Assembly: GCA_025362015.1 (NCBI GenBank)
Contig: JANYIO010000106.1
Coordinates: 1-41,553, forward strand
Direction of reading: 5' to 3'
DNA length: 41,553 bases
Source of the DNA: Gammaproteobacteria bacterium
Lineage (GTDB): Bacteria; Pseudomonadota; Gammaproteobacteria; Pseudomonadales; Cellvibrionaceae
Made by a program: the position numbers and the translations under genes. Under the pieces are notes generated by a model. It had not been told where the DNA came from. It saw only the letters and a list, made by a program, of their open reading frames with translations, and made no database searches. Each line of letters starts with the position of its first letter. Within the stretch, counting starts at the first letter, position 1. Positions 4,783 to 21,142 of the stretch are shown here, piece after piece.

Positions 4783-6642
4783 CTATATCGGAAAGCTGGT
4801 ATCGATAACTTTTACAAGCACTCGGTCACTCTTATCAATAAGTACGTGCGAGCTACAATTCATACAGGGATCAAAACTTTGAATAGTGCGCTGGATATCA
4901 ATACCACTAAAATCTTCTGCATTATTAAAACGGCTTTCGATAATAGGCGTATTCAGCAACGCTTTCTCCAGCGGGCCTAATTCATCATTACGGGTACGAG
5001 TGCCAACATTCACCCGGGAGGGAATGGCTATTTGATAGTTATCAATAACCTGATCTTTGATAACGGCCCAATGCGCTAAAAATCCACGGCTCGCGCCCCA
5101 TAATCCTACGCCTAATTGCTGGCCAGCTTTATCATTTTTTAGCTGTACAAAAGTTTGTGTATTACCTGAGCGGATCAATTGCTTGGCGATGCAAATATTT
5201 TCTTGTGTTACGGAAAGATTAAACGCCAGTGCATAAGCTCGCGCGCGATTACGCTCAAAAGTATTCCAGGTTTTAGGTACTGCCCAGTGCATTTTTACAT
5301 CCGCCGCATTAGTAACAGGTAGTAAAAAGTCCAGCCCAAAGCCTGTAGCAAAAAGATAATTACTTTTCGGTAGTTGTTGCGCTACCGCAGTGAGATAAAG
5401 CCGCGCATAAGCACCAACTTCAAAGCCCTCCCCCCTCCAGGTTAAACTCGAACCCCAGCTATAAGCATGGGCATTGAGCGTACGCGAAATTTGCGTTTTT
5501 TTATTCCACGGGTGATATTCACTAATACGATTGCCATTGGGATCCTGCGTGATAATATTTTCAGGTGTTAGCGATGCGCGTGCTTGATAGGAATAATCTA
5601 AAAATTCTTCCATGCCAGCATTCAGTTGACTTAATTGCGTGCAAGCTAATTTGCCATTGATAATTGCCGCTGGAGTCGACCAGCGTTTTCGCCCCCAGGT
5701 ATCGCAGGTTTCATAGCGCCCATCATAATAATCCGGGTGATCCCACTGCCCAAAATCCAACATGGATGCAGCGCTTTTACCGAGGTCTTCATAGCGTGGG
5801 TTGGCATCCAACATAAAGTTAAATATGTCATCCCACAGCGCCGCAGTTTTTTGACTATAAATTGTAAAGGGTTGCAGAATAGTTTCAAATTGCGTTAGCT
5901 TTTCTGGGTCAACGCTAATAGTGACACCACCGGGAATTATCGATTCTGAATGCGGATATTTTCCACCCAGTAAAGCATAAGCCTGGCGCGCAAGCGAAAC
6001 CATTGTTAAAGCTTCTTTATAAAGTTTTCCTTCACCTTTATTAAGATCCACCATGATATCGCTAATGCGTTTATAGCCATGTAAATGTGAAAACTGACTG
6101 CTGACTTGTTGCGCTTTTATCCATATTTCCGGATTGGTTTTTTCAATAATCTGTTGTGAATAATCTGGCCCGGCCAACACAAACAAGTGCATACAATTAT
6201 CATTTAGATATTGGCAACTCAGTAAGAGATTCCGCAACACTATTCCCAGTGGTGGCGGTTTCAATCCCAGAGCCATTTCTAAACAAAGCGCAGATGCAGT
6301 CGCATGTACACCACCACAAATTCCCGACGCGGTTGAACTCACCAAGCCAACCTGTTTTAAATCGCGACCAGGAAGCAAAGATTCATAGCCTTTAAAAAGT
6401 GTGGCCATGGCGGCAACTTCAAGTACTTTTTTGTTTTCAAGATCTATTCGACAATGTACGGCAAGGCCGCCACCCAAAAGACTTAAAGGGTCAGCTGGCT
6501 TAGTAAGGCTGGCTTTATTTTTTTCTTTGATCAGCAACATTAGTTCAGGACTTAAGCACGAACTTGGTGATTTTTTTGTAGTTTGTATTTGTATGGCCGT
6601 GTAGATAGGTATAGTAATTTCTTCGTCTAATTCGAGTTCCAT
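4783..6642 (-). CDS. [NiFe]-hydrogenase large-subunit homologue with altered L1 motif, no small subunit
   Basis: A 619-residue protein of the nickel-dependent hydrogenase large-subunit family. The N-terminal region has DPLSLLGGGLAVHCRIDLEN and ATLFKGYESLLPGRD; the usual RxEGH block is replaced by SLLGGG, so its Glu is gone. The L1 motif RxCGxC reads TASGIC (residues 104-109): the first metal-ligand Cys is Ser106 (codon TCG) and the Arg before it is changed, while Cys109 and the following GGVHATAS remain. Arg519 in GASRGFLAHW and the L2 motif DPCMNCSSH (Cys593, Cys596, His599) are kept, followed by a 20-residue C-terminal extension of the kind normally cut by a maturation protease. Three of the four cysteine ligands therefore remain. 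ATG 6642 follows GGAG. No small subunit, HypA/B or protease gene is in the window. It is the last gene of the minus-strand run. The reaction is unknown; it may not be a hydrogenase. Confidence 0.85.
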   Translation of the reverse strand: MELELDEEITIPIYTAIQIQTTKKSPSSCLSPELMLLIKEKNKASLTKPADPLSLLGGGLAVHCRIDLENKKVLEVAAMATLFKGYESLLPGRDLKQVGLVSSTASGICGGVHATASALCLEMALGLKPPPLGIVLRNLLLSCQYLNDNCMHLFVLAGPDYSQQIIEKTNPEIWIKAQQVSSQFSHLHGYKRISDIMVDLNKGEGKLYKEALTMVSLARQAYALLGGKYPHSESIIPGGVTISVDPEKLTQFETILQPFTIYSQKTAALWDDIFNFMLDANPRYEDLGKSAASMLDFGQWDHPDYYDGRYETCDTWGRKRWSTPAAIINGKLACTQLSQLNAGMEEFLDYSYQARASLTPENIITQDPNGNRISEYHPWNKKTQISRTLNAHAYSWGSSLTWRGEGFEVGAYARLYLTAVAQQLPKSNYLFATGFGLDFLLPVTNAADVKMHWAVPKTWNTFERNRARAYALAFNLSVTQENICIAKQLIRSGNTQTFVQLKNDKAGQQLGVGLWGASRGFLAHWAVIKDQVIDNYQIAIPSRVNVGTRTRNDELGPLEKALLNTPIIESRFNNAEDFSGIDIQRTIQSFDPCMNCSSHVLIDKSDRVLVKVIDTSFPI

Positions 6643-6667: not shown

Positions 6668-6730
6668 TTGATGCTAGTTATATTTTTTGACGCAAGTTAT
6701 ATGCTTTGATACACGAATTATATGTTTTGA
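6668..6730. repeat. Short tandem repeat, about 20-nt period, three copies
   Basis: Three imperfect copies of a unit like TTGATGCTAGTTATATTTT, each starting TTGA and containing A(A/G)TTATAT, lie between the hydrogenase-like gene and the upstream glycosyltransferase. The last copy runs into the 3' end of the glycosyltransferase frame. It is one of several similar spacer repeats in this window. Confidence 0.65.
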
Positions 6731-7560
6731 ATTAAGAGCTCAGTGAGCTGCTCTTTGCGCTGCTGAAAACATTGTTCGGTATCATCGTTCCACTTTGGAT
6801 TACCCAGATAACGTGAAATAATATTTTTTTGCTGCTGCCAAATTTGCTGCTGTTCTTTTATACTTTTAGTTTGACCAGAAGCGCTGTAAAAATGCCGGGT
6901 GCCATCATTAAACACACGTCGCGTACAAATAATTTGTGGGTAAAGCAGCCCCTTGAATTGGCTGAAAAATCTAAACTCCAGATCCCAGTCCTCGTCCAAA
7001 CGCAGCGCCTCATCAAAAGGATTACTGCCAAGCAGCAGTAAAGCAGTTTTTCTAAACGTCATACCACTGGTACAACACACCGGCCCCAATTGCATAATTT
7101 TTATAGACCAATCGAAAAAACGCGGCTGCTGTTGGTTAAATAATATTTCTCGTTGCGCAAAAGTATCTTTTGAACGCAATTTATTCTCAACAAAGGTACT
7201 GGCATTACCCGCCAACATATCAGCTTCAGGAAAACGCTCTAGTAATAGAAGCTCTGTTTGAATTTTATTTTCCAGCCAAATATCGTCAGAATCTAAAAAA
7301 GCAATTAACTCACCTTTTGCTTCGCGGATACCGCGATTGCGTGCAGCAGCAGGCCCCTGATTAGATTGACGGAAATAGCGTACTTGGGAATAAAGCGCTT
7401 GCGGATATCGTTGCGTAATCATTTCCGCAGTGCCGTCCCGCGAACCATCATCAATGACTATAATTTCAAGCGCGTGAAAATTTTGTTGTAACACGCTGTC
7501 GATGGCTTCTGCTAATAATTTACAGCGGTTGTAACTGGGAATAATGACTGAATAAATCAC
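6718..7560 (-). CDS. Glycosyltransferase family 2
   Basis: A 280-residue GT-A-fold glycosyltransferase. It opens with the classic GT2 block YSVIIPSYNRCKLLAEAIDS, then LEIIVIDDGSRDGTAEM and NQGPAAARNRGI. The metal-binding DxD-type motif is in AFLDSDDIWLENK. The C-terminal half (a LRLDEDWDLEFR block, where the ED pair is a probable catalytic base region) matches inverting GT2 enzymes that transfer a sugar from a nucleotide donor. There is no membrane segment, so it is cytosolic. Its ATG overlaps the stop of the preceding GT2 gene by 4 bp (ATGA), so the two are coupled. Acceptor and sugar are unknown; location beside tag-bearing cytosolic proteins makes a protein or small-molecule acceptor as plausible as a cell-surface glycan. 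Confidence 0.88.
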   Translation of the reverse strand: MIYSVIIPSYNRCKLLAEAIDSVLQQNFHALEIIVIDDGSRDGTAEMITQRYPQALYSQVRYFRQSNQGPAAARNRGIREAKGELIAFLDSDDIWLENKIQTELLLLERFPEADMLAGNASTFVENKLRSKDTFAQREILFNQQQPRFFDWSIKIMQLGPVCCTSGMTFRKTALLLLGSNPFDEALRLDEDWDLEFRFFSQFKGLLYPQIICTRRVFNDGTRHFYSASGQTKSIKEQQQIWQQQKNIISRYLGNPKWNDDTEQCFQQRKEQLTELLIQNI

Positions 7561-8330
7561 AATGACATATACCTGGAAAATTTCACATGGTCGGCCGCAG
7601 ATTCAGGTTGAATTTTTAAGCTGCGTTCGCCTGTTTTATATTGCTGCAAATAGTCAGCATTGAGCTGTTGGATAGATTTGCGTAATGGCGATTTAAAATT
7701 CGTGTCAGGATGCGCAGTTAAAGAATTTTCATGCGTGCGGCGCAAATATAAAAATTGTTCGATAGTGCAAGGTTTGAAACCTGCAGTTTGAATGCGATTT
7801 AAAAAATCTGTATCCGCACTACAGCGCCAGGCGCGAAATCCACCCAGGCGTTGCCAAACTTCGCGCTTAATAACAAATTGTCCTTCAGCTGCACGACGAT
7901 TTAAACCATTTGCAGGATGATAAAATTCATGCGCCATAACATGAGAGGTTGCTTGTAAGTTGACATCAGTATAGATGCTCCATGACATAGCCATATCTAC
8001 ATCTGGCCCAATGCTGAGAATGTGCGCCCTTAAATAATCGGGCTGCATTACATCGTCAGCATCAAAGCGACAAATTAATTCGCCTGTGGCATAAGCCATT
8101 AGTGTATTGAAAGTAATATAGGTGCCATGGTTTTTTTGCAAATAAACAATACCGAGATCGGGGTAGCTTATTGTCTCTGTTGCTTTCAAGGTATCGTCAC
8201 AGCCATCAATGCCGAGCAGTACTTGCATTTTCCAGCCATTCGGTAGCTGTTGCGAAAATACAGAATTCAAACAATCTTGTACATATTCTTGCGCTTGATA
8301 GGCTGCAATTAAAATAGAAATAGTTTTCAT
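7557..8330 (-). CDS. Glycosyltransferase family 2
   Basis: A 257-residue GT2 enzyme: TISILIAAYQAQEYVQDCLN at the N-terminus, VLLGIDGCDDTLKAT as the nucleotide-binding strand, LQKNHGTYITFNTLMAYA, and the DxD motif in CRFDADDVMQPDYL. Later come GQFVIKREVWQRLGGFR and CSADTDFLNRI, the usual acceptor-side blocks. It is soluble, with no signal peptide. It overlaps by 4 bp both the ATP-grasp-like gene upstream and the next GT2 gene downstream, so the three are translated as one coupled block. The two GT2 proteins differ clearly in sequence and are not a recent duplicate pair. Substrate unknown. Confidence 0.88.
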   Translation of the reverse strand: MKTISILIAAYQAQEYVQDCLNSVFSQQLPNGWKMQVLLGIDGCDDTLKATETISYPDLGIVYLQKNHGTYITFNTLMAYATGELICRFDADDVMQPDYLRAHILSIGPDVDMAMSWSIYTDVNLQATSHVMAHEFYHPANGLNRRAAEGQFVIKREVWQRLGGFRAWRCSADTDFLNRIQTAGFKPCTIEQFLYLRRTHENSLTAHPDTNFKSPLRKSIQQLNADYLQQYKTGERSLKIQPESAADHVKFSRYMSL

Positions 8331-9340
8331 GCTTCGACTAATTCCATTTGTAATTCTGTTTCTAAATTGCGCTTAAGAAAGCTGCGCGCACCTTGACACA
8401 AAAAATTCACTGCATCAGACGTTTGTTGTTTTACTCCTGCATAAGGCGTGAGATTTAAATCAATGATGTAATGGGCACCCGTATTCTGGGCTGAATCAAA
8501 AGTATTCTGGATTGGATCAAAGGCATCGTGGACTATATCAAGGCAAAAATAAGCCAGAGGATAATGTGTAATAAAAGTTTTAATAGTTTCCTGCAGGTCA
8601 ATAGCCAACTCAGTTTTCTCAGTAAGGATTTGGTGCTTGCTGAGCATAATATTGATATCTTTCGGGTGTTCAGTCAGCTTCTTAATTAATGCCTCACTGT
8701 GAGCCTTAACAATCACGATGGAATCGCCAAAACCATAGACACGAAAAAAACTATTTTCAGAATTTTCAATATAGTTTTCAATAACAACACTAGAATTAAA
8801 CCAAAGCTCAGGATCAATATCGCAGCGTTTTATCACATAGTAATTATCCCAACCTGTTATTAAAGACGGTTTTTGTGGAAGTAATTTCTCATGCAACTCT
8901 TGCGGCAAGCGCAACTCTATCTCACCACCCCAGTTAAGGTTGGATTTAATAAATAGCAACTGATTAGCCTGACCATATTTTTCAGCTTTAGCAGATCGCA
9001 GTCCCGCTTGTTGTAGCAACTGGTGCAAGTTTCGTTTACTGATATCTTCAACTTCCAAATTTAACACCAGAATATTACGTGCTTGCAGCGCGCGAATAAG
9101 TTGTAACCGTTTAGCGGGATAAACTCCCGCATTGGTTAAATTCACTTGAAATAAAACCGCGCGAATATTGGGCGTGAGATGCTGCTCAAGATTTGATATT
9201 TCATCATCATAGTGTGCGTCGATATGGCAATAATCAGCTGCAAGATGGCTGATTAAAAAGCCATCCCAGGCTTGCCACTGATAAATCAAAATATTATCCA
9301 GTAAACAGCTATCCGATAAATAACTATCAAACTTGCTCAT
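8327..9340 (-). CDS. ATP-grasp-like protein
   Basis: A 337-residue soluble protein that I assign to the ATP-grasp superfamily from local motifs. LLFIKSNLNWGGEIE matches the glycine-rich nucleotide-binding strand and loop (K-x-[ND]-L-N-x-GG). VIKRCDIDPELWFN and VVIENYIE cover the lid and hinge region. YFCLDIVHD and HYIIDLNLTPYAG are the two acidic strands that carry the Mg-binding Asp and Asn. Between these strands there is a tandemly repeated insertion (FDPIQNT, FDSAQNT) that looks like a recent 21-nt duplication. ATP-grasp enzymes join a carboxylate to an amine or thiol through an acyl phosphate. The partner substrate here is unknown, but peptide or protein ligases belong to this group. ATG 9340 follows GGGGTAAGAG. 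Coupled to two GT2 genes. Confidence 0.65.
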   Translation of the reverse strand: MSKFDSYLSDSCLLDNILIYQWQAWDGFLISHLAADYCHIDAHYDDEISNLEQHLTPNIRAVLFQVNLTNAGVYPAKRLQLIRALQARNILVLNLEVEDISKRNLHQLLQQAGLRSAKAEKYGQANQLLFIKSNLNWGGEIELRLPQELHEKLLPQKPSLITGWDNYYVIKRCDIDPELWFNSSVVIENYIENSENSFFRVYGFGDSIVIVKAHSEALIKKLTEHPKDINIMLSKHQILTEKTELAIDLQETIKTFITHYPLAYFCLDIVHDAFDPIQNTFDSAQNTGAHYIIDLNLTPYAGVKQQTSDAVNFLCQGARSFLKRNLETELQMELVEA

Positions 9341-9380: not shown

Positions 9381-10253
9381 TTAGCCAAGTTTGATCATCT
9401 GGCTGCCACCCTGACGACCATCTGCAGATAAGCGACAAATGTAAACTCCCTGCCCTAAAGGATTGCCTTCATTATCACAGCCATTCCACACAATAGTCTG
9501 GCGGCCCTGCCCTTGAACCTTGTCATGTACAAGTGTTTTGACATAAAACGCAAACTGATTCCACAAACCCACAAATACATTTTCCGTATCATCAGGCAAT
9601 TGATAACTAATTTCTAAAGTGCCATCGGCTTGTTTTTTATATTCCAACGCAAAATCATGCTGTGGAAATAAAATTTTATTGTCTGTTTGGGAGAACGCAC
9701 TTTTATCAATTTTTTCGCCGCTGCGAGCAGGTTCCAAACGCCGTTGCTTAACCTTTGCAAAAGCAGCTTTTTTAACATGGCCACCAAACTGTAATTTATA
9801 AACTTGTTGGCCAGAACAATAGCCAGCAGTAACCGGGTTGCCAATAAAACGATAACGGTTAATACGTAAACGCTGATCACTATTCGAATCTTGCGGAATA
9901 TTATCTTGCCTTACCCAGGTAAGCCCACCGTCTTCCGTGTAAGAGTTAAATAAGCCGGCAAAATTATCGCCCCAGCCGCCAACCCAACCTTGAGTTTCAT
10001 TGATAAAGCCAATGCCCTCCAGATCGACATTAATGATGGTGCCAAGGCTGTCTTGCACATTGTGACGAACCCATGTTTCGCCACCGTCCGTCGTTTTCAA
10101 AATAGCGGCACTGGCAAAATTTTCCAAACTAATAAAACCAAATTTCTGATTAATAAATTGAATTTTCCAGCCCCATTCACCGCACAAGAATCCAGCAGTA
10201 TTAGCGGCCATATTTTGCCAGGTTTTACCACCATCCAGAGTTCGCAACACCAC
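9381..10253 (-). CDS. YCF48/BNR-type beta-propeller protein, C-terminal part after an apparent frameshift
   Basis: 290 codons that continue the propeller of the gene ending at 10225. Repeats of the form T-x-DGG-x-TW are visible (LRTLDGGKTW, LKTTDGGETW, YTEDGGLTW), as in YCF48/HCF136-like photosystem II assembly factors and sialidase BNR repeats. A basic linker carries KKAAFA (9756-9773) and DKSAFS (9690-9707), variants of the tag found in the neighbouring lectin. The last 90 residues (QTIVWNGCDNEGNPLGQGVYICRL) match a FlgD-type Ig-like domain. The only start is GTG at 10253 without a Shine-Dalgarno sequence, and the upstream frame overlaps by 29 bp. One base too many in CCGGTGGTG would explain the split. 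It is probably the second half of one protein of about 520 residues. Confidence 0.7.
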   Translation of the reverse strand: MVLRTLDGGKTWQNMAANTAGFLCGEWGWKIQFINQKFGFISLENFASAAILKTTDGGETWVRHNVQDSLGTIINVDLEGIGFINETQGWVGGWGDNFAGLFNSYTEDGGLTWVRQDNIPQDSNSDQRLRINRYRFIGNPVTAGYCSGQQVYKLQFGGHVKKAAFAKVKQRRLEPARSGEKIDKSAFSQTDNKILFPQHDFALEYKKQADGTLEISYQLPDDTENVFVGLWNQFAFYVKTLVHDKVQGQGRQTIVWNGCDNEGNPLGQGVYICRLSADGRQGGSQMIKLG

Positions 10254-10944
10254 CGGTTGTAAGTTGCGCGTAACGAATCAAGCGCGGGGCAGGATAAGCT
10301 TTATTATCGATGGGACATTGGTCCTGAATTTTTCCGCCGACTACAAAACCTTTGTTTTCGTCGACAAAATAAATATCAATTAAATTATCGGCATGGGCAC
10401 TCATATCAATTAATTGCCAACTCGCACCGCCATTAGTCGTTTTAATAATGCCCGGTCCGGGCAGGCCTGGATCATTGGTGCCCGCACCATAAGCAACCTG
10501 CTCATTCACTGCATAAAATCCACAAATACCCGCAGGCGACGCTTTGGGTAAATTCAAGACCGGGTGCCAGGTTTCACCACCATCTTTAGTATGATGCAAT
10601 AAGGTATTGAGATAGTTATCAGGATTTTTTACACCATCGTCACCCAACCCTGTCACAGAACCAAACCAGCCAACTTTCTCGCTGCCCCAACCCATACAAC
10701 GTAAATAGGGCTTACCTTTTGAGCTTGGGCAAAGATAAAATTTTGGGTGCCAGCAATCACCACCATCCGTTGTTTTACAAACATAGCCGCTGGAATTAAC
10801 AAGCCACCCATGCTGTTCATTAAAAAACCAAATATCATCTGTACGCGAGCTGGCAATTGGAGAATTTTCTAACACTTCCCAAGATAATTTCGTGGCAGGA
10901 AATGCAGATTTTTTTGGCAATGTCGGTGTGGTGGTTTTAGTCAT
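10225..10944 (-). CDS. YCF48/BNR-type beta-propeller protein, N-terminal part
   Basis: 239 codons starting at ATG 10944 behind a good AAGGAAAA site. The N-terminus carries the tag variant PKKSAFPATK (residues 10-19) and no signal peptide. Propeller repeats follow (YVCKTTDGGDCW, HHTKDGGETW, IKTTNGGASW), each after a GWxxG-type turn such as GWLVNSSG and VGWFGSVTG. The frame leaves the homologous sequence at about 10250 and ends in a short unrelated tail (LTTGGVANSGWW), exactly where the next frame takes up LRTLDGGKTW. This is best explained by a +1 frameshift, a real mutation or a sequencing error, in one gene spanning 9381-10944. YCF48-type propellers often act as assembly factors or binding scaffolds, which would suit a chaperone or substrate role here. 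Confidence 0.72.
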   Translation of the reverse strand: MTKTTTPTLPKKSAFPATKLSWEVLENSPIASSRTDDIWFFNEQHGWLVNSSGYVCKTTDGGDCWHPKFYLCPSSKGKPYLRCMGWGSEKVGWFGSVTGLGDDGVKNPDNYLNTLLHHTKDGGETWHPVLNLPKASPAGICGFYAVNEQVAYGAGTNDPGLPGPGIIKTTNGGASWQLIDMSAHADNLIDIYFVDENKGFVVGGKIQDQCPIDNKAYPAPRLIRYAQLTTGGVANSGWW

Positions 10945-10969
10945 GACAGGTTTTCCTTATGGCGGCAGT

Positions 10970-11584
10970 TTATTTTTTATCAGGCGCAAAAGCTGATTTC
11001 TTTTCGACAGCAAAAGCTGATTTTTTAGTAGCAGCAAAAGCCGATTTTTTAACCGGGGTAGCGGTTGCAGCAAAAGCCGATTTTTTAGCAAACGCTGATT
11101 TTTTAACAACAGGCTGAGTACCATCACTAAGCACAAAGCTCCATAACTGGTTATCGCTGGTAGGTGAGTTTTGTGGATAACTGATAACTTGTGTGCCAGG
11201 TGCAGTGTTAGAACCGGTAATATCCAGCACGAAACTATTTAACAGACTAACAATATAGAAATATCCCTCAACACTGCTTTCAACAATTTGCCAAATTTGA
11301 TTATTAGACGCTGGCGAATTTATCGGGTAATTAATAATGGGAGTTACAGGTGCAGTATTTGAGCCCTTAATATCCAACACAAAATTATTTAATTTAGTTT
11401 GGATATAGTATTGGCTTTGGCCACCAGACCGGTCTTTAGGGCCAGTTGGCACACGCTGCCATAATTGACTAGGAGCGCCCGTTTGTGGGTTACTCACAAT
11501 AGGTGTTACAGCAGCAGTATTTGCGCCCTGAACATCCAACACATAGCCGTTAAGTTTACTGGTAATAAAAAAATAATCAGACAT
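10970..11584 (-). CDS. R-type (ricin B-like) beta-trefoil protein with a tail of five KKSAFA tags
   Basis: 204 residues. Residues 1-155 form a three-fold beta-trefoil: LNGYVLDVQGANT, LNNFVLDIKGSNT and LNSFVLDITGSNT each lead to a QLW or QIW strand end, the Q-x-W hallmark of ricin-type lectins. The three lobes are very alike. Residues 160-204 are a low-complexity basic tail containing KKSAFA five times, separated by 0-6 residues such as AT, VE and ATATPV. There is no signal peptide or membrane helix, so the protein should be cytosolic unless exported in an unusual way. ATG 11584 follows AAGGAAAA. The trefoil may bind glycan, which is interesting next to two GT2 genes. The tag also occurs in the adjacent propeller. 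Function unknown; a substrate or scaffold carrying several modification sites is my inference. Confidence 0.82.
   Translation of the reverse strand: MSDYFFITSKLNGYVLDVQGANTAAVTPIVSNPQTGAPSQLWQRVPTGPKDRSGGQSQYYIQTKLNNFVLDIKGSNTAPVTPIINYPINSPASNNQIWQIVESSVEGYFYIVSLLNSFVLDITGSNTAPGTQVISYPQNSPTSDNQLWSFVLSDGTQPVVKKSAFAKKSAFAATATPVKKSAFAATKKSAFAVEKKSAFAPDKK
10985..11104 (-). repeat. Coding repeat: five KKSAFA units
   Basis: The 3' end of the lectin gene holds five copies of an 18-nt unit read on the minus strand as AAAAAATCGGCTTTTGCT with small synonymous changes (TCA/TCG/TCC-type Ser codons, GCT/GCA Ala). Spacing is uneven (0, 6, 2 and 2 codons), so it is not a simple slippage product; the peptide is kept while the DNA varies. 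Confidence 0.9.
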
Positions 11585-11600: not shown

Positions 11601-11640
11601 GTTTATGAATTACTGTTTTTGTTTATGGGTCACTGTTTTT
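11601..11640. repeat. 20-nt tandem repeat, two copies
   Basis: GTTTATGAATTACTGTTTTT is followed directly by a second copy with three changes, in the 55-bp spacer between the multicopper oxidase and the lectin gene. The second copy abuts the oxidase stop codon. Confidence 0.75.
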
Positions 11641-13361
11641 TATGGCGAAATGGTCACGTTCATCATCATGCCTTGATCTTCATGGTCAAGATTATGGCAA
11701 TGCAGTACAAATTCACCGTCAAAATCGTCATAGCGCGACAACACAGTGAGCGCATTTTTTTCGCTCTTATTATCAGTACCGGAAACTAACAAAGTATCTT
11801 TCCAATAACTGAATCCATTTTTATCGATAAGTTGAAACGGATTAACGTGAATATGAAATGGATGACTTGCAGTAGAAGTTTGTTTTTCGCCAACCCATAG
11901 TTTCCAGGTATTGCTGTCATTAAGTTTTAGGTGTTTAGTCAGCGTATTGGGATACACACCGTCGTTTACGGTTTTATTAGTTCCGCCAGAGTCATTGGCG
12001 ACGTTAGCAAACCAAACTCTTTCTTTTGTCAATTGCTCGCTGCAATCGTTGAAAAATCTTATTTTTGCAGCAACACCTTGCACATGAGTGGTATCGCAAA
12101 TAAAGGGATAGGGATTATGAAATATGTCTGACGGCGGCATTTTCATAGCCGTAAGTGTATTTTTCTGAATAATAATTTTTGCAATTTGTTTGCTTGGTTC
12201 TGCTTCACCCATCAAACTATTAGCTGCCTTACTAACATCATCGACCAAAAATAATTCACAAGGATATTGTTCTTTACATTCGGGAAACTGTAATAACACA
12301 TCACTGCGATAGCCTGGCTGCAGTAAAATATTTTTCTGGATCTGCGCACCATTGGTGGTAATACCATCGCGCGCAAATTCATGTAAATTCAGTTTCACGC
12401 CATCGGCTTGCACAACTGCAATATTGATAGATTCACTAATACCCGCATCAATAAGCCGCCAACGATTAATATCACCCGCCATAACGGTAATAATAGGTAA
12501 ACACTGACCATTGATAGAAGTAGTAATATTTTCACCACCACTTGCTTTTCCACACAACGGAGTATTATTTGCGTCGGTAGACAACTGTTGCAGAATCATT
12601 ACCTTGTCTTTACTTCCTGCAATGTCATAGTCTTTAGCTAGGGTTTTATCCAACGCACCTTTTAAAATAATGGCACCCGCCATGCCCTGCTTAAGTTGTG
12701 ATGCAGTTGAACCATGTAAATGCGCATGCAACCAATGAGTACCGGGCGGATGATTATTGGGAATTTCATAATCATATTTAACCGTTTGTGTTGCAGGCGA
12801 TATCGCCAGAAATACAAAATCAGATTGAACTTGCGCGGGATCAAGAGAACCCTTAGGTGAAACATGAAGACCATGAACATGCAGATTGGTGCATTGACTT
12901 ACATCTTTACCATGATGACCGCAATCATAAGTTTTATTGCTATCGCCTAATTTATTCGTGAATTCAATCGTTAATTTTGGCGGGGGAAGCTGTGAGTCCA
13001 CATCAAGAATATAGCTAGGCCCAACCGCACGCTTATCAAAGCCGGCATTGCTATCAAGATAAGACTGCAAGGAAATAATTTTTCCGTTAACACATTTATC
13101 GCTAAGCTTTGCACTGAGCTGGGTGTTAATTCGCAAATCTTTTGCAGTCAATGTGGGTGGATCCATAAGTTCCTGATATAAACCCGTGCCCGAGCAATCT
13201 ATAGGAATCTCTTTGGCTAACGGCGTTACTGTCGCCAACGCAATTGCTGGTCGAGTTGTTGCTTGTATATCATTTGGCTGATTGATATGTTCACAACCAC
13301 TCAGCAAAAAAAAAGGTATAACCAGTAAATAGGTATAAAACGTAAAAGCAGATCTATTCAT
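11640..13361 (-). CDS. Multicopper oxidase, periplasmic or outer membrane lipoprotein
   Basis: 573 residues with a lipoprotein signal (YLLVIPFFLLSGC, lipobox LSGC at residue 23). All four copper motifs are intact: HVHGLH, HWLHAHLHG, HPFHIHVNPFQ and the C-terminal HCHNLDHEDQGMM, which provides the type 1 Cys, His and Met ligands and the trinuclear-site histidines. This is the laccase/CotA/bilirubin oxidase layout, so it should oxidise a substrate one electron at a time and reduce O2 to water. The Met axial ligand suggests a moderate redox potential. Unlike the cytosolic tag-bearing proteins next to it, it acts outside the cytoplasm, together with the cytochrome-like protein at 15450. The ribosome binding site (GAGAAAA) is weak. 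Substrate unknown. Confidence 0.9.
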   Translation of the reverse strand: MNRSAFTFYTYLLVIPFFLLSGCEHINQPNDIQATTRPAIALATVTPLAKEIPIDCSGTGLYQELMDPPTLTAKDLRINTQLSAKLSDKCVNGKIISLQSYLDSNAGFDKRAVGPSYILDVDSQLPPPKLTIEFTNKLGDSNKTYDCGHHGKDVSQCTNLHVHGLHVSPKGSLDPAQVQSDFVFLAISPATQTVKYDYEIPNNHPPGTHWLHAHLHGSTASQLKQGMAGAIILKGALDKTLAKDYDIAGSKDKVMILQQLSTDANNTPLCGKASGGENITTSINGQCLPIITVMAGDINRWRLIDAGISESINIAVVQADGVKLNLHEFARDGITTNGAQIQKNILLQPGYRSDVLLQFPECKEQYPCELFLVDDVSKAANSLMGEAEPSKQIAKIIIQKNTLTAMKMPPSDIFHNPYPFICDTTHVQGVAAKIRFFNDCSEQLTKERVWFANVANDSGGTNKTVNDGVYPNTLTKHLKLNDSNTWKLWVGEKQTSTASHPFHIHVNPFQLIDKNGFSYWKDTLLVSGTDNKSEKNALTVLSRYDDFDGEFVLHCHNLDHEDQGMMMNVTISP

Positions 13362-15449: not shown

Positions 15450-17117
15450 TTAAAGACCGAAGTTGGAGCTGTTAATCATTTTGGTATTGTGTGCGGCTTG
15501 TTGGCTTGCAGTTAAACTACTGGCCGGCACCGAATCAAGTTCTTTACCTTTACCACCAACACCGTTAGCAAGAAAACTGAAATCGCGCCCAAGTTGTTCC
15601 GCTACACCATGGCAACCCTGACACCCGCCCATACTGTATTTAGGTGCAGGAACTGGCTGGCCTTCCTGAACATTGAGAGAAACATTGTTATAGGTAGTCG
15701 GTGGAGTACCGGTATTAAGTTTTGGATCAGGATAAACACAATTTGAACTACCCTTCACACCGCGACAATTAACAAAATAGAGTTGGCTTGGATCTGCAAT
15801 ACCTGCCACTGGCACACCGCCATTGAGAAGAATTCCGCTGAATAATTGAATGCCTGGTTGACTACTTTCCACAACTATATTGGCTAAATAAAAATTACTT
15901 GTCGTGGTGTCGCTGGTAGATACAGCTTGCACACCTTTAAGACGATAATTTCCCCAGACGTTTGTTTTATCGATGCTTTGCACCAAAGCGTTAACCTGAT
16001 TATTTACATCATTCACTTCGCTAATAATGTCATTAGGCTCTACCACAGTCGTGAAATTTTGCGAGATAGCACCAGCAGCAGGAAGCGTGTAAGTCGTTAA
16101 TTTATTTTTCTGTGGAGGCTGACCTTGCGCATTAATGGAGTAAGCACCATTGGCGGTAACGGTGTGCGGCTCCTGATTAGGTGATTGATAAGACAGGTTG
16201 TTATAAGTCGTTTTGTAGGCTGGATCTGTAATCGCGTTGGTGTTATTGCGAGTTACCGCATTCACATGTTCGAACGAGGTAAAAATAAATTGTTGATAAT
16301 TCGCCGTCTTCTGAATGATATGAATAGCAATCAGTGCAAAGGTATCTGTGTAGGGAGTAGGGACACCTGAAGCATCGGTAATATAATAAGTTGCGCTGGC
16401 TTGATGATATTTACTAGGATCAGAATTTTTGATATCCCTGACTCTGCGCCAAGCGGTTTTAACTTCAATCACATTATTGGGAAAATCCCATGATTTATTT
16501 GCAGCAGGAGCAGTACGGCTCGGGTCCAATGCGTAGTTTGTTTCTATTTGATTCACTTTAACCATAAATAAAACCGGAAAATTAGGCGCATAGGAATTTT
16601 GGTAATACAAAAAGTTTTGGCTAATTTGATTGGTCTCGTCCAAATAAACATAATTTTGATTTTGCAAAGTAAGAGGCACATTAGCGCCCGCTGCATTTGC
16701 ATAAAAGGTGTTATAGACAGGCACTTGATTAATGGGTGATGCCGGTTTAGTTGTGGTGTAATAAGGAAAAGCTTCCGTGCGGTGATAGAAGCTTTCAAAC
16801 ACTAATGGGTTATCTACACCAGGACTTGCACCGGTATTAATAAAATTATTTTTCCCATCACCTACTGCTCGCCCTGTACCAGAACTTAGTGATGCGGTGG
16901 TCTGCTGCGTCGCGGCAATAAATAAACGCCAGGCATAGTTAGCAAACTGAGTTTGATTGGCACCGCTGACTAAATCGGAAGGAAAGGTCGTGACGGGCAC
17001 CGTCAAATCCGTTTTGGTAATTGCGCCACCATTATCAGCAGCAGCCAAACCCAGCTGAGATAGACTAGCGCTCAGTAAAAAAATGCAGACAAAACTTAAT
17101 GTTTTATTGTAGTTCAT
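15450..17117 (-). CDS. Secreted one-heme c-type cytochrome-like protein
   Basis: 555 residues from ATG 17117 (GAGAGA ribosome binding site). A TTG 48 bp upstream opens the same frame but would spoil the signal peptide. MNYNKTLSFVCIFLLSASLS... ending GLAAAD is a Sec signal. The body has the blocks of a poorly characterised family of exported proteins: YAWRLFIAATQQ, VFESFYHRTEAFPYY, IEVKTAWRRVRD, FALIAIHIIQKT, FIFTSFEHVNAV, and near the C-terminus a single heme c motif GCQGCHGVAEQLGRDFSF. It therefore probably binds one covalent heme in the periplasm, and could pass electrons to or from the multicopper oxidase encoded downstream. I know this family only from its motif pattern; no biochemical role is established to my knowledge. 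Confidence 0.75.
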   Translation of the reverse strand: MNYNKTLSFVCIFLLSASLSQLGLAAADNGGAITKTDLTVPVTTFPSDLVSGANQTQFANYAWRLFIAATQQTTASLSSGTGRAVGDGKNNFINTGASPGVDNPLVFESFYHRTEAFPYYTTTKPASPINQVPVYNTFYANAAGANVPLTLQNQNYVYLDETNQISQNFLYYQNSYAPNFPVLFMVKVNQIETNYALDPSRTAPAANKSWDFPNNVIEVKTAWRRVRDIKNSDPSKYHQASATYYITDASGVPTPYTDTFALIAIHIIQKTANYQQFIFTSFEHVNAVTRNNTNAITDPAYKTTYNNLSYQSPNQEPHTVTANGAYSINAQGQPPQKNKLTTYTLPAAGAISQNFTTVVEPNDIISEVNDVNNQVNALVQSIDKTNVWGNYRLKGVQAVSTSDTTTSNFYLANIVVESSQPGIQLFSGILLNGGVPVAGIADPSQLYFVNCRGVKGSSNCVYPDPKLNTGTPPTTYNNVSLNVQEGQPVPAPKYSMGGCQGCHGVAEQLGRDFSFLANGVGGKGKELDSVPASSLTASQQAAHNTKMINSSNFGL

Positions 17118-17161
17118 GTTTTTTCTCTCTATCAATTGAAAGGATTGTTTACACACGGCGA

Positions 17162-17803
17162 TCAAACAGCAACTGCGCCCTCGGCGATGTTATTCGGAGC
17201 AACCTTGTTCCAAATATGATTAGTCGGTATTTCACCTATCGCTAAAGGTGGTAAATATTTAACGGAAAAATTTTCACTCAGGGGTGCTACCCAAATTCGC
17301 GCAGAAAGATTTACTTTATATAATTCAAATAATTTATCGTCGCTCTCGCGAGTTTCGCTATAAACACGGCGATCAATTAATTCATAAAATTCCCTTGGCA
17401 CAAAATCATCGCGCAATAAAACATGGGCAGTTTGCTGGCCATCACTAACCCACCATTCAAATTTCATTTCACTGTTGCAGCGGCTAACACAGTTATCATT
17501 TTGCATGACGGTTAAACGCCCTTTATTAGTACAATGGGTCACGAAATTTAAAGAATCCAAAACTCCCGGCCCGGGATGGCCGCTCACCACGGTTAAATGT
17601 TCTCGACTCCATAGTTTGTCTTTAGAGAGTGCGATAGCCGCCATTTGCATAGCGCGATAACCAACCGCAGTACCCCACCACAAAGAACGCTGGTGTTCGG
17701 CGGTTGCATTTTGATAATCAAGCGTTACCACCTGGTCGTTATCGACAATACGAATTAATAAACCTTCTGTAGGAATATGTTCAGTTGGAGAAAAAGAGTT
17801 CAT
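17162..17803 (-). CDS. FmdE-like domain protein
   Basis: 213 residues with a resemblance to the FmdE family, the accessory subunit E of formylmethanofuran dehydrogenase. The order of blocks agrees: GTAVGYRAMQMAAIAL corresponds to the helix after the family's CPGxxxG loop, and LTVVSGHPGPGVLDSLNFVT-HCTNKGRLTV corresponds to the V-D-A-I-Q-x-x-T-G-C-T-x-G-K-G-N-L block. The normal HxHxCPG metal-binding loop is replaced by LWWGTAVG; remaining Cys and His residues (SGH, THC, CVSRC) might bind a metal. No signal peptide. ATG 17803 follows AAGGAAAA. It lies directly after hypE, so co-expression with the Fe(CN)2CO pathway is likely. One-carbon or CO-ligand chemistry is a speculation from the family name only. 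Confidence 0.55.
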   Translation of the reverse strand: MNSFSPTEHIPTEGLLIRIVDNDQVVTLDYQNATAEHQRSLWWGTAVGYRAMQMAAIALSKDKLWSREHLTVVSGHPGPGVLDSLNFVTHCTNKGRLTVMQNDNCVSRCNSEMKFEWWVSDGQQTAHVLLRDDFVPREFYELIDRRVYSETRESDDKLFELYKVNLSARIWVAPLSENFSVKYLPPLAIGEIPTNHIWNKVAPNNIAEGAVAV

Positions 17804-20155: not shown

Positions 20156-20864
20156 CTTCGGCTCCTGTATTTTTATTAGCTGTAGTCGCGGAAGAACCAC
20201 GATCGTCGGCCAGTAAGGTATGCACTAAATCCCATAACACATGGTAAATAGCAACGTGACATTCCTGCACACGATGAATGCTATCCGAGTTAACAATAAG
20301 GCAATGATCCAACCCGGCTTTTGCCATTTCCCCACCATTGCCACCAGTAAGTGCAATAGTCACTGCACCTATTTTTTTTGCTTGAGCAAAGGCTTTCAAC
20401 AAATTTTCTGAATTACCGCTGGTAGAAATACCAATAAGTGCATCATTTTTTTTCACCAAAGTGGCTACTTGTCGGGCGTACACCTGGTGATAACCGACAT
20501 CATTAGCAATGGCTGTCATGACAGTTTTATCGCAACTTAAATCATAGGCTGGTAGCGCTGGCCTACCGGTAGTCACAGGGTGCAAAAATTCAACCGCAAT
20601 ATGCGAAGCATCCGAACTTGAACCACCATTGCCCATACTAAAAAGCTGACCCTGGTTTTTATACATAGTGGCAATGGCATTAGCACAATCCACAATGGCT
20701 TGATTATTATTTGCAAAAAAATCGCTAATAATTAATTTGTGCTGCAGAATTTTTTGTTCAATTGAATCCAGTAATGCCTGGTTCATACTCGCAACATCCG
20801 ATTTTTTATTCGTTAAAAAAGGATAAAGCGCATTTAAACTGGAGTTGTTTTCAGTTTTATTCAT
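20142..20864 (-). CDS. SIS-domain sugar phosphate isomerase, GmhA/DiaA-like
   Basis: 240 residues of the phosphoheptose isomerase type. Motifs are LFSMGNGGSSSDASHIAVEF (phosphate-binding Ser loop), LIGISTSGNSENLL, and CHVAIYHVLWDLVH near the end, as in GmhA and DiaA. The N-terminal 45 residues are extra compared with GmhA (about 192 aa). GmhA converts sedoheptulose 7-phosphate to heptose 7-phosphate, but SIS proteins bind many sugar phosphates. Its place inside the hyp operon (1-bp overlap with hypC, 14-bp overlap with hypD) argues for a role tied to the metallocofactor pathway or to the sugar transferred by the GT2 enzymes, rather than LPS core synthesis. Substrate is not readable from sequence. 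Confidence 0.85.
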   Translation of the reverse strand: MNKTENNSSLNALYPFLTNKKSDVASMNQALLDSIEQKILQHKLIISDFFANNNQAIVDCANAIATMYKNQGQLFSMGNGGSSSDASHIAVEFLHPVTTGRPALPAYDLSCDKTVMTAIANDVGYHQVYARQVATLVKKNDALIGISTSGNSENLLKAFAQAKKIGAVTIALTGGNGGEMAKAGLDHCLIVNSDSIHRVQECHVAIYHVLWDLVHTLLADDRGSSATTANKNTGAEDEIC

Positions 20865-21142
20865 TACGATTCCCCTTCTTGCATGGCTGCGAGCTCTTCT
20901 TGCATATTGCCCAACTCAATTAATACTGCGAGTGTTGCCTGCGCCTCGGCTTCGTTAATCACACTCATCGCAAAACCAACGTGAACCAATACCCAACTAT
21001 TAATATGTTGATGTAGATCCTGCCCTACTTCAGCAATGCAGCTGAGATTAACCGCACGCTGAATACCTCCCACATCTACTATGCCCAGCTGTTGTTCAAC
21101 ATCACTAATGCTGACAATTTTTCCCGGGATACCTAAACACAT
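20864..21142 (-). CDS. hypC: Hydrogenase maturation chaperone HypC
   Basis: 92 residues beginning MCLGIPGKIVSI, the canonical HypC/HupF N-terminus; Cys2 is the essential iron-binding residue once Met is removed. The small beta-barrel continues with VDVGGIQRAVNLSCIAEV and HINSWVLVHVGFAMSVI, followed by an acidic helical tail with EEL repeats. HypC carries iron and CO2/CO ligands with HypD and escorts the Fe(CN)2CO unit to a hydrogenase large subunit. The start overlaps the end of hypF by 10 bp. A single hypC-like gene is present, so the large-subunit homologue at 4783 is its likely client. Confidence 0.95.
   Translation of the reverse strand: MCLGIPGKIVSISDVEQQLGIVDVGGIQRAVNLSCIAEVGQDLHQHINSWVLVHVGFAMSVINEAEAQATLAVLIELGNMQEELAAMQEGES

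Follow-up and report, generated by a model that had tools for sequence, protein, structure and literature searches.

Encapsulin cargo tags are, among described systems, the closest in architecture to the proteins considered here. In the published accounts (PMC8346489, PMC8049743), and notably for the Family 2B terpene cyclases (PMC8346489), a conserved short peptide lies in a disordered, unannotated linker or terminus and is repeated within one protein. Graspetides (PMC8939145) combine a co-encoded ATP-grasp enzyme with repeated short peptide units borne by a leader-core precursor. The locus described here is a hydrogenase-like gene cluster on contig JANYIO010000106.1 (assembly GCA_025362015.1) of a gammaproteobacterium of the Cellvibrionaceae; the whole stretch analysed, 41,553 nucleotides, is called the window. 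In it a ricin-B-type lectin and a neighbouring YCF48-like beta-propeller carry the same short peptide, K-x-A-F, in their tails and linkers (Table 1). As in encapsulin cargo, the peptide is conserved, sits both at a terminus and within a linker, and is repeated within one protein. The encapsulin peptides are GPTGLGT or TVGSL, unlike K-x-A-F, and a search of the three tag-bearing genomes gave no classical encapsulin (PF04454, 0/3, with the control positive in 3/14). An ATP-grasp-like gene accompanies the repeats as in graspetides; the enzyme relationship is considered a weak lead, and the lectin tail has few acids. No leader-core precursor was recognised here, the substrate candidates being a folded lectin and propeller, and the tagged proteins do not show the graspetide precursor design (short, with a leader and with pairs of an acid and Ser/Thr/Lys). 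The system is thus filed under neither encapsulin cargo nor graspetides. Among the matches listed from the literature searched, judged by title and beginning of abstract, no description of the motif or of the cluster was found, and the string KKSAFA turned up in one unrelated paper.

The reading preferred here, with a probability of about 0.4, is that K-x-A-F is a conserved linear recognition tag read by co-encoded enzymes, an ATP-grasp-like protein and two GT2 glycosyltransferases (GT2a and GT2b), to which its lysine is probably offered. Eighteen tags were read in three loci (the window, a locus designated L045 and a genome designated G179), giving the consensus [K/D/E/Q/S]-K-x-[A/C]-F-[A/S/G/P]. 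Lys and Phe are present in 18/18, an invariance partly due to the search pattern, which requires both, and the Phe is preceded by Ala in 17/18 and by Cys in 1/18. On reading the linkers of the window, L045 and G179, no variant replacing K or F was seen. Position x is Ser in 10 tags, Ala in 3 and Asn, Thr, Gly, Glu or Asp in one each, and the residue after Phe is Ala in 13, Ser in 3 and Pro or Gly in one each. The consensus K-[KD]-[SA]-A-F-[APS] given in a preliminary description of this DNA was out of register for DKSAFS, where Lys comes second, and is corrected to [KD]-K-[SA]-A-F. The placement of the peptide in tails and linkers of two unrelated neighbours was confirmed (five units in the lectin tail, others at the propeller N-terminus and in its linker).

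The tags are kept at homologous sites in L045 and G179. L045 is among the seven loci obtained by scanning with the hydrogenase-like protein; in 37 genomes searched, one close relative (G011) came up, with partial matches also in G024 and G026. G179 emerged when 369 genomes of the class were searched with the propeller, plus a 33% partial match in G280. The L045 lectin ends with one KKSAFA and its intact propeller carries QKNAFA, KKAAFG, KKAAFS and DKSCFS, while the G179 propeller linker carries KKSAFA, SKTAFA, KKGAFA, EKEAFA and EKDAFA; no lectin homologue was found in the G179 stretches compared. The linker tags of the window, L045 and G179 align at two sites, A and B, flanking a conserved P-A-R-S spacer; the N-terminal propeller tag is homologous between the window and L045, which also have the lectin C-terminal tag in common. 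Copy number varies, from five in the window lectin to one in that of L045, and from two (window) to three (L045) and five (G179) in the linker. The G179 tags include T, G, E or D at position x and S or E ahead of Lys, with K..F unchanged, so that the tag is not merely a matter of basic composition. The tag-bearing proteins span 171 to 543 amino acids (aa), leaving aside the split halves of the window propeller. Codon use differs among the tags, Ser being encoded by both codon families (TCN and AGT), and the likeness is therefore not merely a recent DNA copy; recent duplication as the sole origin of the tags was rejected as unlikely for this reason.

Location outside the folded domains, as first proposed, held for the conserved peptide at a terminus or linker, disorder being judged from the confidence of a weak structure model. 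In the model of the L045 propeller the predicted local distance difference test (pLDDT) score, taken in blocks of 10 residues, is lowest in the chain at residues 381-440 (19-28) and is 28-30 at residues 1-20, in a model weak overall (mean pLDDT 50.9; "the other four", 30 to 34); this is in line with predicted disorder of the tag regions. No signal peptide is evident on reading the N-termini of the lectin and the propeller, in agreement with the earlier statement, and both proteins appear cytoplasmic.

Local clustering was compared with chance by shuffling each tagged protein 20,000 times. The five lectin matches to the pattern of the preliminary description were reached in 0 of 20,000 shuffles, the single match of the N-terminal propeller part in 6 of 20,000, and the two [KD]K[SA]AF[APS] matches of the C-terminal part in 0 of 20,000; over the five tagged sequences other than the window lectin, single matches to the earlier pattern were reached in 0 to 6 shuffles. 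Density was measured over a total of 143,008 aa in open reading frames (ORFs) of at least 100 aa, taken from the window and from 18 loci (19 sequences), of which L041 and L042 overlap by about 500 bases and L058 and L059 by about 400. The tagged proteins (2,027 aa) account for 17 of the 32 KxAF matches and the remaining sequence for 15, an approximately 80-fold difference. Counts over whole genomes are at background: the window's own genome has 29 DNA matches, 7 of them inside the lectin and propeller genes, and 29 are likewise obtained with the reversed control pattern. With a second pattern, matches against reversed control were 18 v 18 in the own genome, 20 v 12 in G179 and 3 v 8 in the L045 genome. 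The tag signal is thus one of local clustering, and genome-wide tagging is not supported, the own-genome counts equalling the reversed control for both patterns. The 22 off-cluster matches of the own genome comprise 16 in frames that stay open for fewer than 100 aa and 6 in stop-to-stop ORFs of at least 100 aa, with A, P or S after Phe in 1/6 of the latter; for the second pattern, the 30 examined of 41 matches comprise 9 tags, 13 in frames below 100 aa and 8 in longer ones. The idea of a shared tag was to be refuted if the motif occurred at background frequency and was absent from homologous proteins; it survives, because the lectin homologue of L045 and the propeller homologues of L045 and G179 carry the motif, without genome-wide enrichment.

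The ATP-grasp-like, GT2b and GT2a genes are present in 3/3 tag-bearing loci and in 0/6 core clusters without a propeller (G011, L043, L044, L046, L047 and L048; the L043 and L044 stretches are short, and the remote L049, with 27% identity, was excluded from the count). In the DNA compared, the same six clusters have no propeller, no lectin and no K[KRD]-type tag, a single KxAF match lying in an ORF at the far end of L048. In the plasmid sample, 12 records had a propeller match and six were opened: no Kx[AC]F was found when the six propeller regions were read in all three forward frames (the L055 gene being broken in frame), and ATP-grasp or GT2 homologues were found in 0/6 stretches at E 1e-5. 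Nor were the enzymes found in the stretches compared around the remoter propellers L060, L069 and L070, the L070 propeller carrying one GKTAFA near its end. One TKSAFS in the protein adjoining the L055 propeller is taken as chance. The ATP-grasp query gave no match across the plasmid collection, nor in the phage collection or the viral contigs; likewise the L045 lectin was not found in phages nor the propeller in viral contigs. The lectin tail as a protein query gave no match against plasmids, where a low-complexity filter may hide one.

The 337-aa protein is ATP-grasp-like on the basis of conserved residues and weak profile matches. It gave no Pfam match at 1e-3; its invariant residues, K132, N134, E188, R200, D268, D294 and N296 among them, fit the motifs of an ATP-grasp enzyme, and weak matches were obtained to Ins134_P3_kin (E 0.018) and to AMdnB (7m4s, E 0.35). 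The structure model is poor (pLDDT 40.9). Its profile matched 2/326 genomes of the class (G000 and G179), and a search of 398 genomes of the phylum returned the own genome only. Beyond the three tagged loci, genome searches with the propeller and the ATP-grasp-like protein gave only distant relatives. As a separate observation, a HAD/NIF-type phosphatase gene lies between the two GT2 genes in L045 (8288-8860) and in G179 (L058, 15536-16159); it was not found by motif in the window, where the GT2 genes abut, and thus seems not to be needed.

A recognition tag is favoured by conservation within variable linkers, by copy number changing without change of K..F, by the differing codons and by the co-occurring enzymes. 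The peptides would act as short linear tags, placed where two cytoplasmic-looking proteins have unstructured tails and linkers, and several copies per protein would provide avidity. The likely reader would be the co-travelling set (ATP-grasp-like ligase, GT2b and GT2a), to which the tag may hold or dock the lectin and propeller, and the tag lysine would probably be offered to these enzymes. We infer in this way that the tag binds a protein, that the binder is among the ATP-grasp-like and GT2 enzymes, and that a modification is placed on Lys. The Lys found throughout the tags, partly by construction of the search pattern, and the co-occurring candidate enzyme would be compatible with ligation at this residue. 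The original suggestion of recognition or modification by a cluster enzyme is partly supported, as regards a shared recognition tag; glycosylation of Ser as the general rule is not supported.

Several points weigh against this reading. Tags are borne by three loci only, whose propellers are 63-80% identical and hence not independent, and the six plasmid-borne propeller homologues opened lack the tag, which is thus not fully general. Co-occurrence inside one gene cluster can be common inheritance. A multicopper oxidase co-occurs equally well (3/3 tagged loci, 0/6 core clusters), which lowers our confidence; it has a 29% relative in one plasmid locus, and was set aside as tag reader because it looks exported and the tagged proteins look cytoplasmic. 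Distant ATP-grasp relatives, one further in 109 genomes (G848) and one further in 390 (G1149), adjoin GT2-like genes without repeated tags, single matches being KEAFQ, about 11 kb off in a 324-aa ORF of G848, and KECF, close to where the GT2-like ORF of G1149 ends; the enzymes may thus simply make a glycan. Lastly, a Rhizobium propeller linker reads AKSAQA at the same aligned place, so that the tag may have grown from an ordinary linker.

It is possible, although we think it somewhat unlikely, that K-x-A-F docks the lectin and propeller, unmodified, on a structural partner or on each other's domains as a non-covalent assembly tag, in the manner of a cargo peptide. The varying copy number fits avidity here also; the missing PF04454 argues against such a tag, as does the lack of any structural partner identified. 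The SrpI-like PF19307 gave no match in the tag-bearing genomes either (0/3), a result uninformative because the control was also silent. We hold it rather unlikely that the peptides are no more than an ordinary flexible linker, biased towards K, A and S and grown by local duplication, with no specific partner. The lectin tail is indeed rich in K, A and S, Tandem Repeats Finder reports partial tandem arrays in it (10972-11051 and 11069-11109), the motif is not enriched genome-wide, and the Rhizobium homologue shows AKSAQAATRVAAA at the same site. The Phe retained in every unit of the linkers read, the same peptide obtained from different codons, the homologous sites kept in three genomes and the acid-containing versions of G179 all tell against it.

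It is improbable, in our estimate, that K-x-A-F is the substrate motif of a new conjugation system, in which the ATP-grasp enzyme would join a carboxylate, perhaps on a GT2-built glycan, to the lysines. A Ser/Thr glycosylation sequon for the two GT2 enzymes is very improbable: the two genes do co-occur with the tags and x is S or T in 11/18, whereas it is A, N, G, E or D in 7/18, homologous linker positions included, and GT2 enzymes usually act on acceptors other than protein Ser. Even if Asn is admitted with the hydroxyls as acceptor (S 10, T 1, N 1), A, G, E or D occupy x in 6 of 18. Glycosylation of the tag Ser as a general rule, proposed as one example of modification, was rejected on this variation, Ser being at x in 10/18 only. 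Repeated core units are known in graspetides, and an ATP-grasp-like gene with its weak match to the microviridin-type ligase AMdnB is at hand, but ring formation within the tags is scarcely credible, since the lectin tail has by reading a single Glu and a single Asp, both next to its last unit, leaving most units without an acid for a ring, and the tags are carried by folded proteins instead of a leader-core peptide.

Table 1. Tagged proteins, tags and associated genes of the window
Feature	Positions	Strand	Basis or remarks
Ricin-B-type lectin, 204 aa, tagged C-terminal tail	10970..11584	minus	Pfam RicinB_lectin_2 E 1.8e-21
Five KKSAFA tags, lectin tail	10985..11104	minus	First bases 11104, 11086, 11050, 11026, 11002
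YCF48-like beta-propeller, N-terminal half	10225..10944	minus	PSII_BNR E 1.5e-11; 80% identity to L045 propeller
KKSAFP tag, propeller N-terminus	10897..10914	minus	
Propeller C-terminal half, linker and FlgD-Ig-like domain, other frame	9381..10253	minus	BNR, FlgD_ig; 72% identity to L045
KKAAFA tag, linker site A	9756..9773	minus	Alignment with L045 and G179
DKSAFS tag, linker site B, past conserved P-A-R-S spacer	9690..9707	minus	Alignment
ATP-grasp-like protein, 337 aa, co-occurs with tags	8327..9340	minus	Conserved residues and weak matches
GT2 glycosyltransferase b, co-occurs with tags	7557..8330	minus	Glycos_transf_2 E 2.5e-15
GT2 glycosyltransferase a, co-occurs with tags	6718..7560	minus	Glycos_transf_2 E 6.5e-36
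Multicopper oxidase, lipoprotein-like N-terminus by reading	11640..13361	minus	Cu-oxidase_2 E 2.5e-14; present in L045 and G179
Divergent NiFe-hydrogenase large-subunit-like protein, cluster core	4783..6642	minus	NiFeSe_Hases E 3.5e-59; 5aa5 HofG E 1.6e-93

The lectin matches beta-trefoil profiles (PF14200, E 1.8e-21; PF00652, E 3.5e-10), two of its stretches matching RicinB_lectin_2. Its KKSAFA tail differs from ricin-B-type lectins, ten plasmid matches stopping by residue 159 and the tail starting at 161. The propeller matches the PSII_BNR and BNR repeat profiles and is in this respect like YCF48-type propellers, from which it differs by an extra C-terminal FlgD-Ig-like domain and by the tagged linker; among the six plasmid relatives opened, two carry the annotation of a larger ferritin-like protein. 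The propeller had been described as one gene bearing KKSAFP, KKAAFA and DKSAFS: all three tags are present, but the gene lies here in two overlapping frames, the second open from about 10277, unlike the single intact ORF of L045 and of G179. The split near 10250 is possibly a pseudogene, an assembly error or recoding.

The remainder of the cluster comprises hypF, hypD, hypE, a SIS protein, a ComF-like phosphoribosyltransferase, an M15 peptidase and the genes for two proteins conserved in several clusters, one of 571 aa with a CQGCH motif (15450-17165) and one of 213 aa (17162-17803), both on the minus strand and without Pfam or NCBIfam match at 1e-3. An ORF at 20864-21142 begins with MCLGIPG, which we take to be a HypC start, and is read as hypC-like; like hypD, hypE and hypF it adjoins the hydrogenase-like gene. 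In the hydrogenase-like protein the first Cys of the N-terminal Ni-binding motif is Ser (TASGICGGVHATAS); this segment and the RICGIC stretch of 5aa5 give an ungapped alignment, and the C-terminal DPCMNC..H remains. The SGICGGVH form is that of the window and of the eight near clusters scanned (G011, L043-L048 and G179). No hydrogenase small subunit was found among the families matched by the ORFs scanned. The 571-aa homologue of G011 (L041, 15298-17004, plus strand) ends with KMIKSSAFDLR, a near match to the tag; G011 has no lectin or propeller at this locus, and the window copy ends differently. Weak relatives of the 571-aa protein adjoin propellers on Bradyrhizobium plasmids. Propeller homologues on Rhizobium, Bradyrhizobium and Mesorhizobium plasmids (L056, L057, L101 and L102) are located in redox-gene neighbourhoods, annotated, depending on the locus, as tyrosinase, LodA/GoxA-like, multicopper oxidase, cytochrome P460, ferritin-like and radical SAM proteins, and these loci point to a wider family of redox-enzyme clusters.

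A tag common to unrelated folds in one cluster poses a testable question, namely which protein reads it. If the ATP-grasp-like and GT2 enzymes do so, folded bacterial proteins would be marked or joined at lysine in a new manner, and the tag would be portable; if conjugation takes place, the lectin and propeller would be decorated or tied together at several points. Even a mere docking tag would give a first handle on the cluster around the hydrogenase-like protein.
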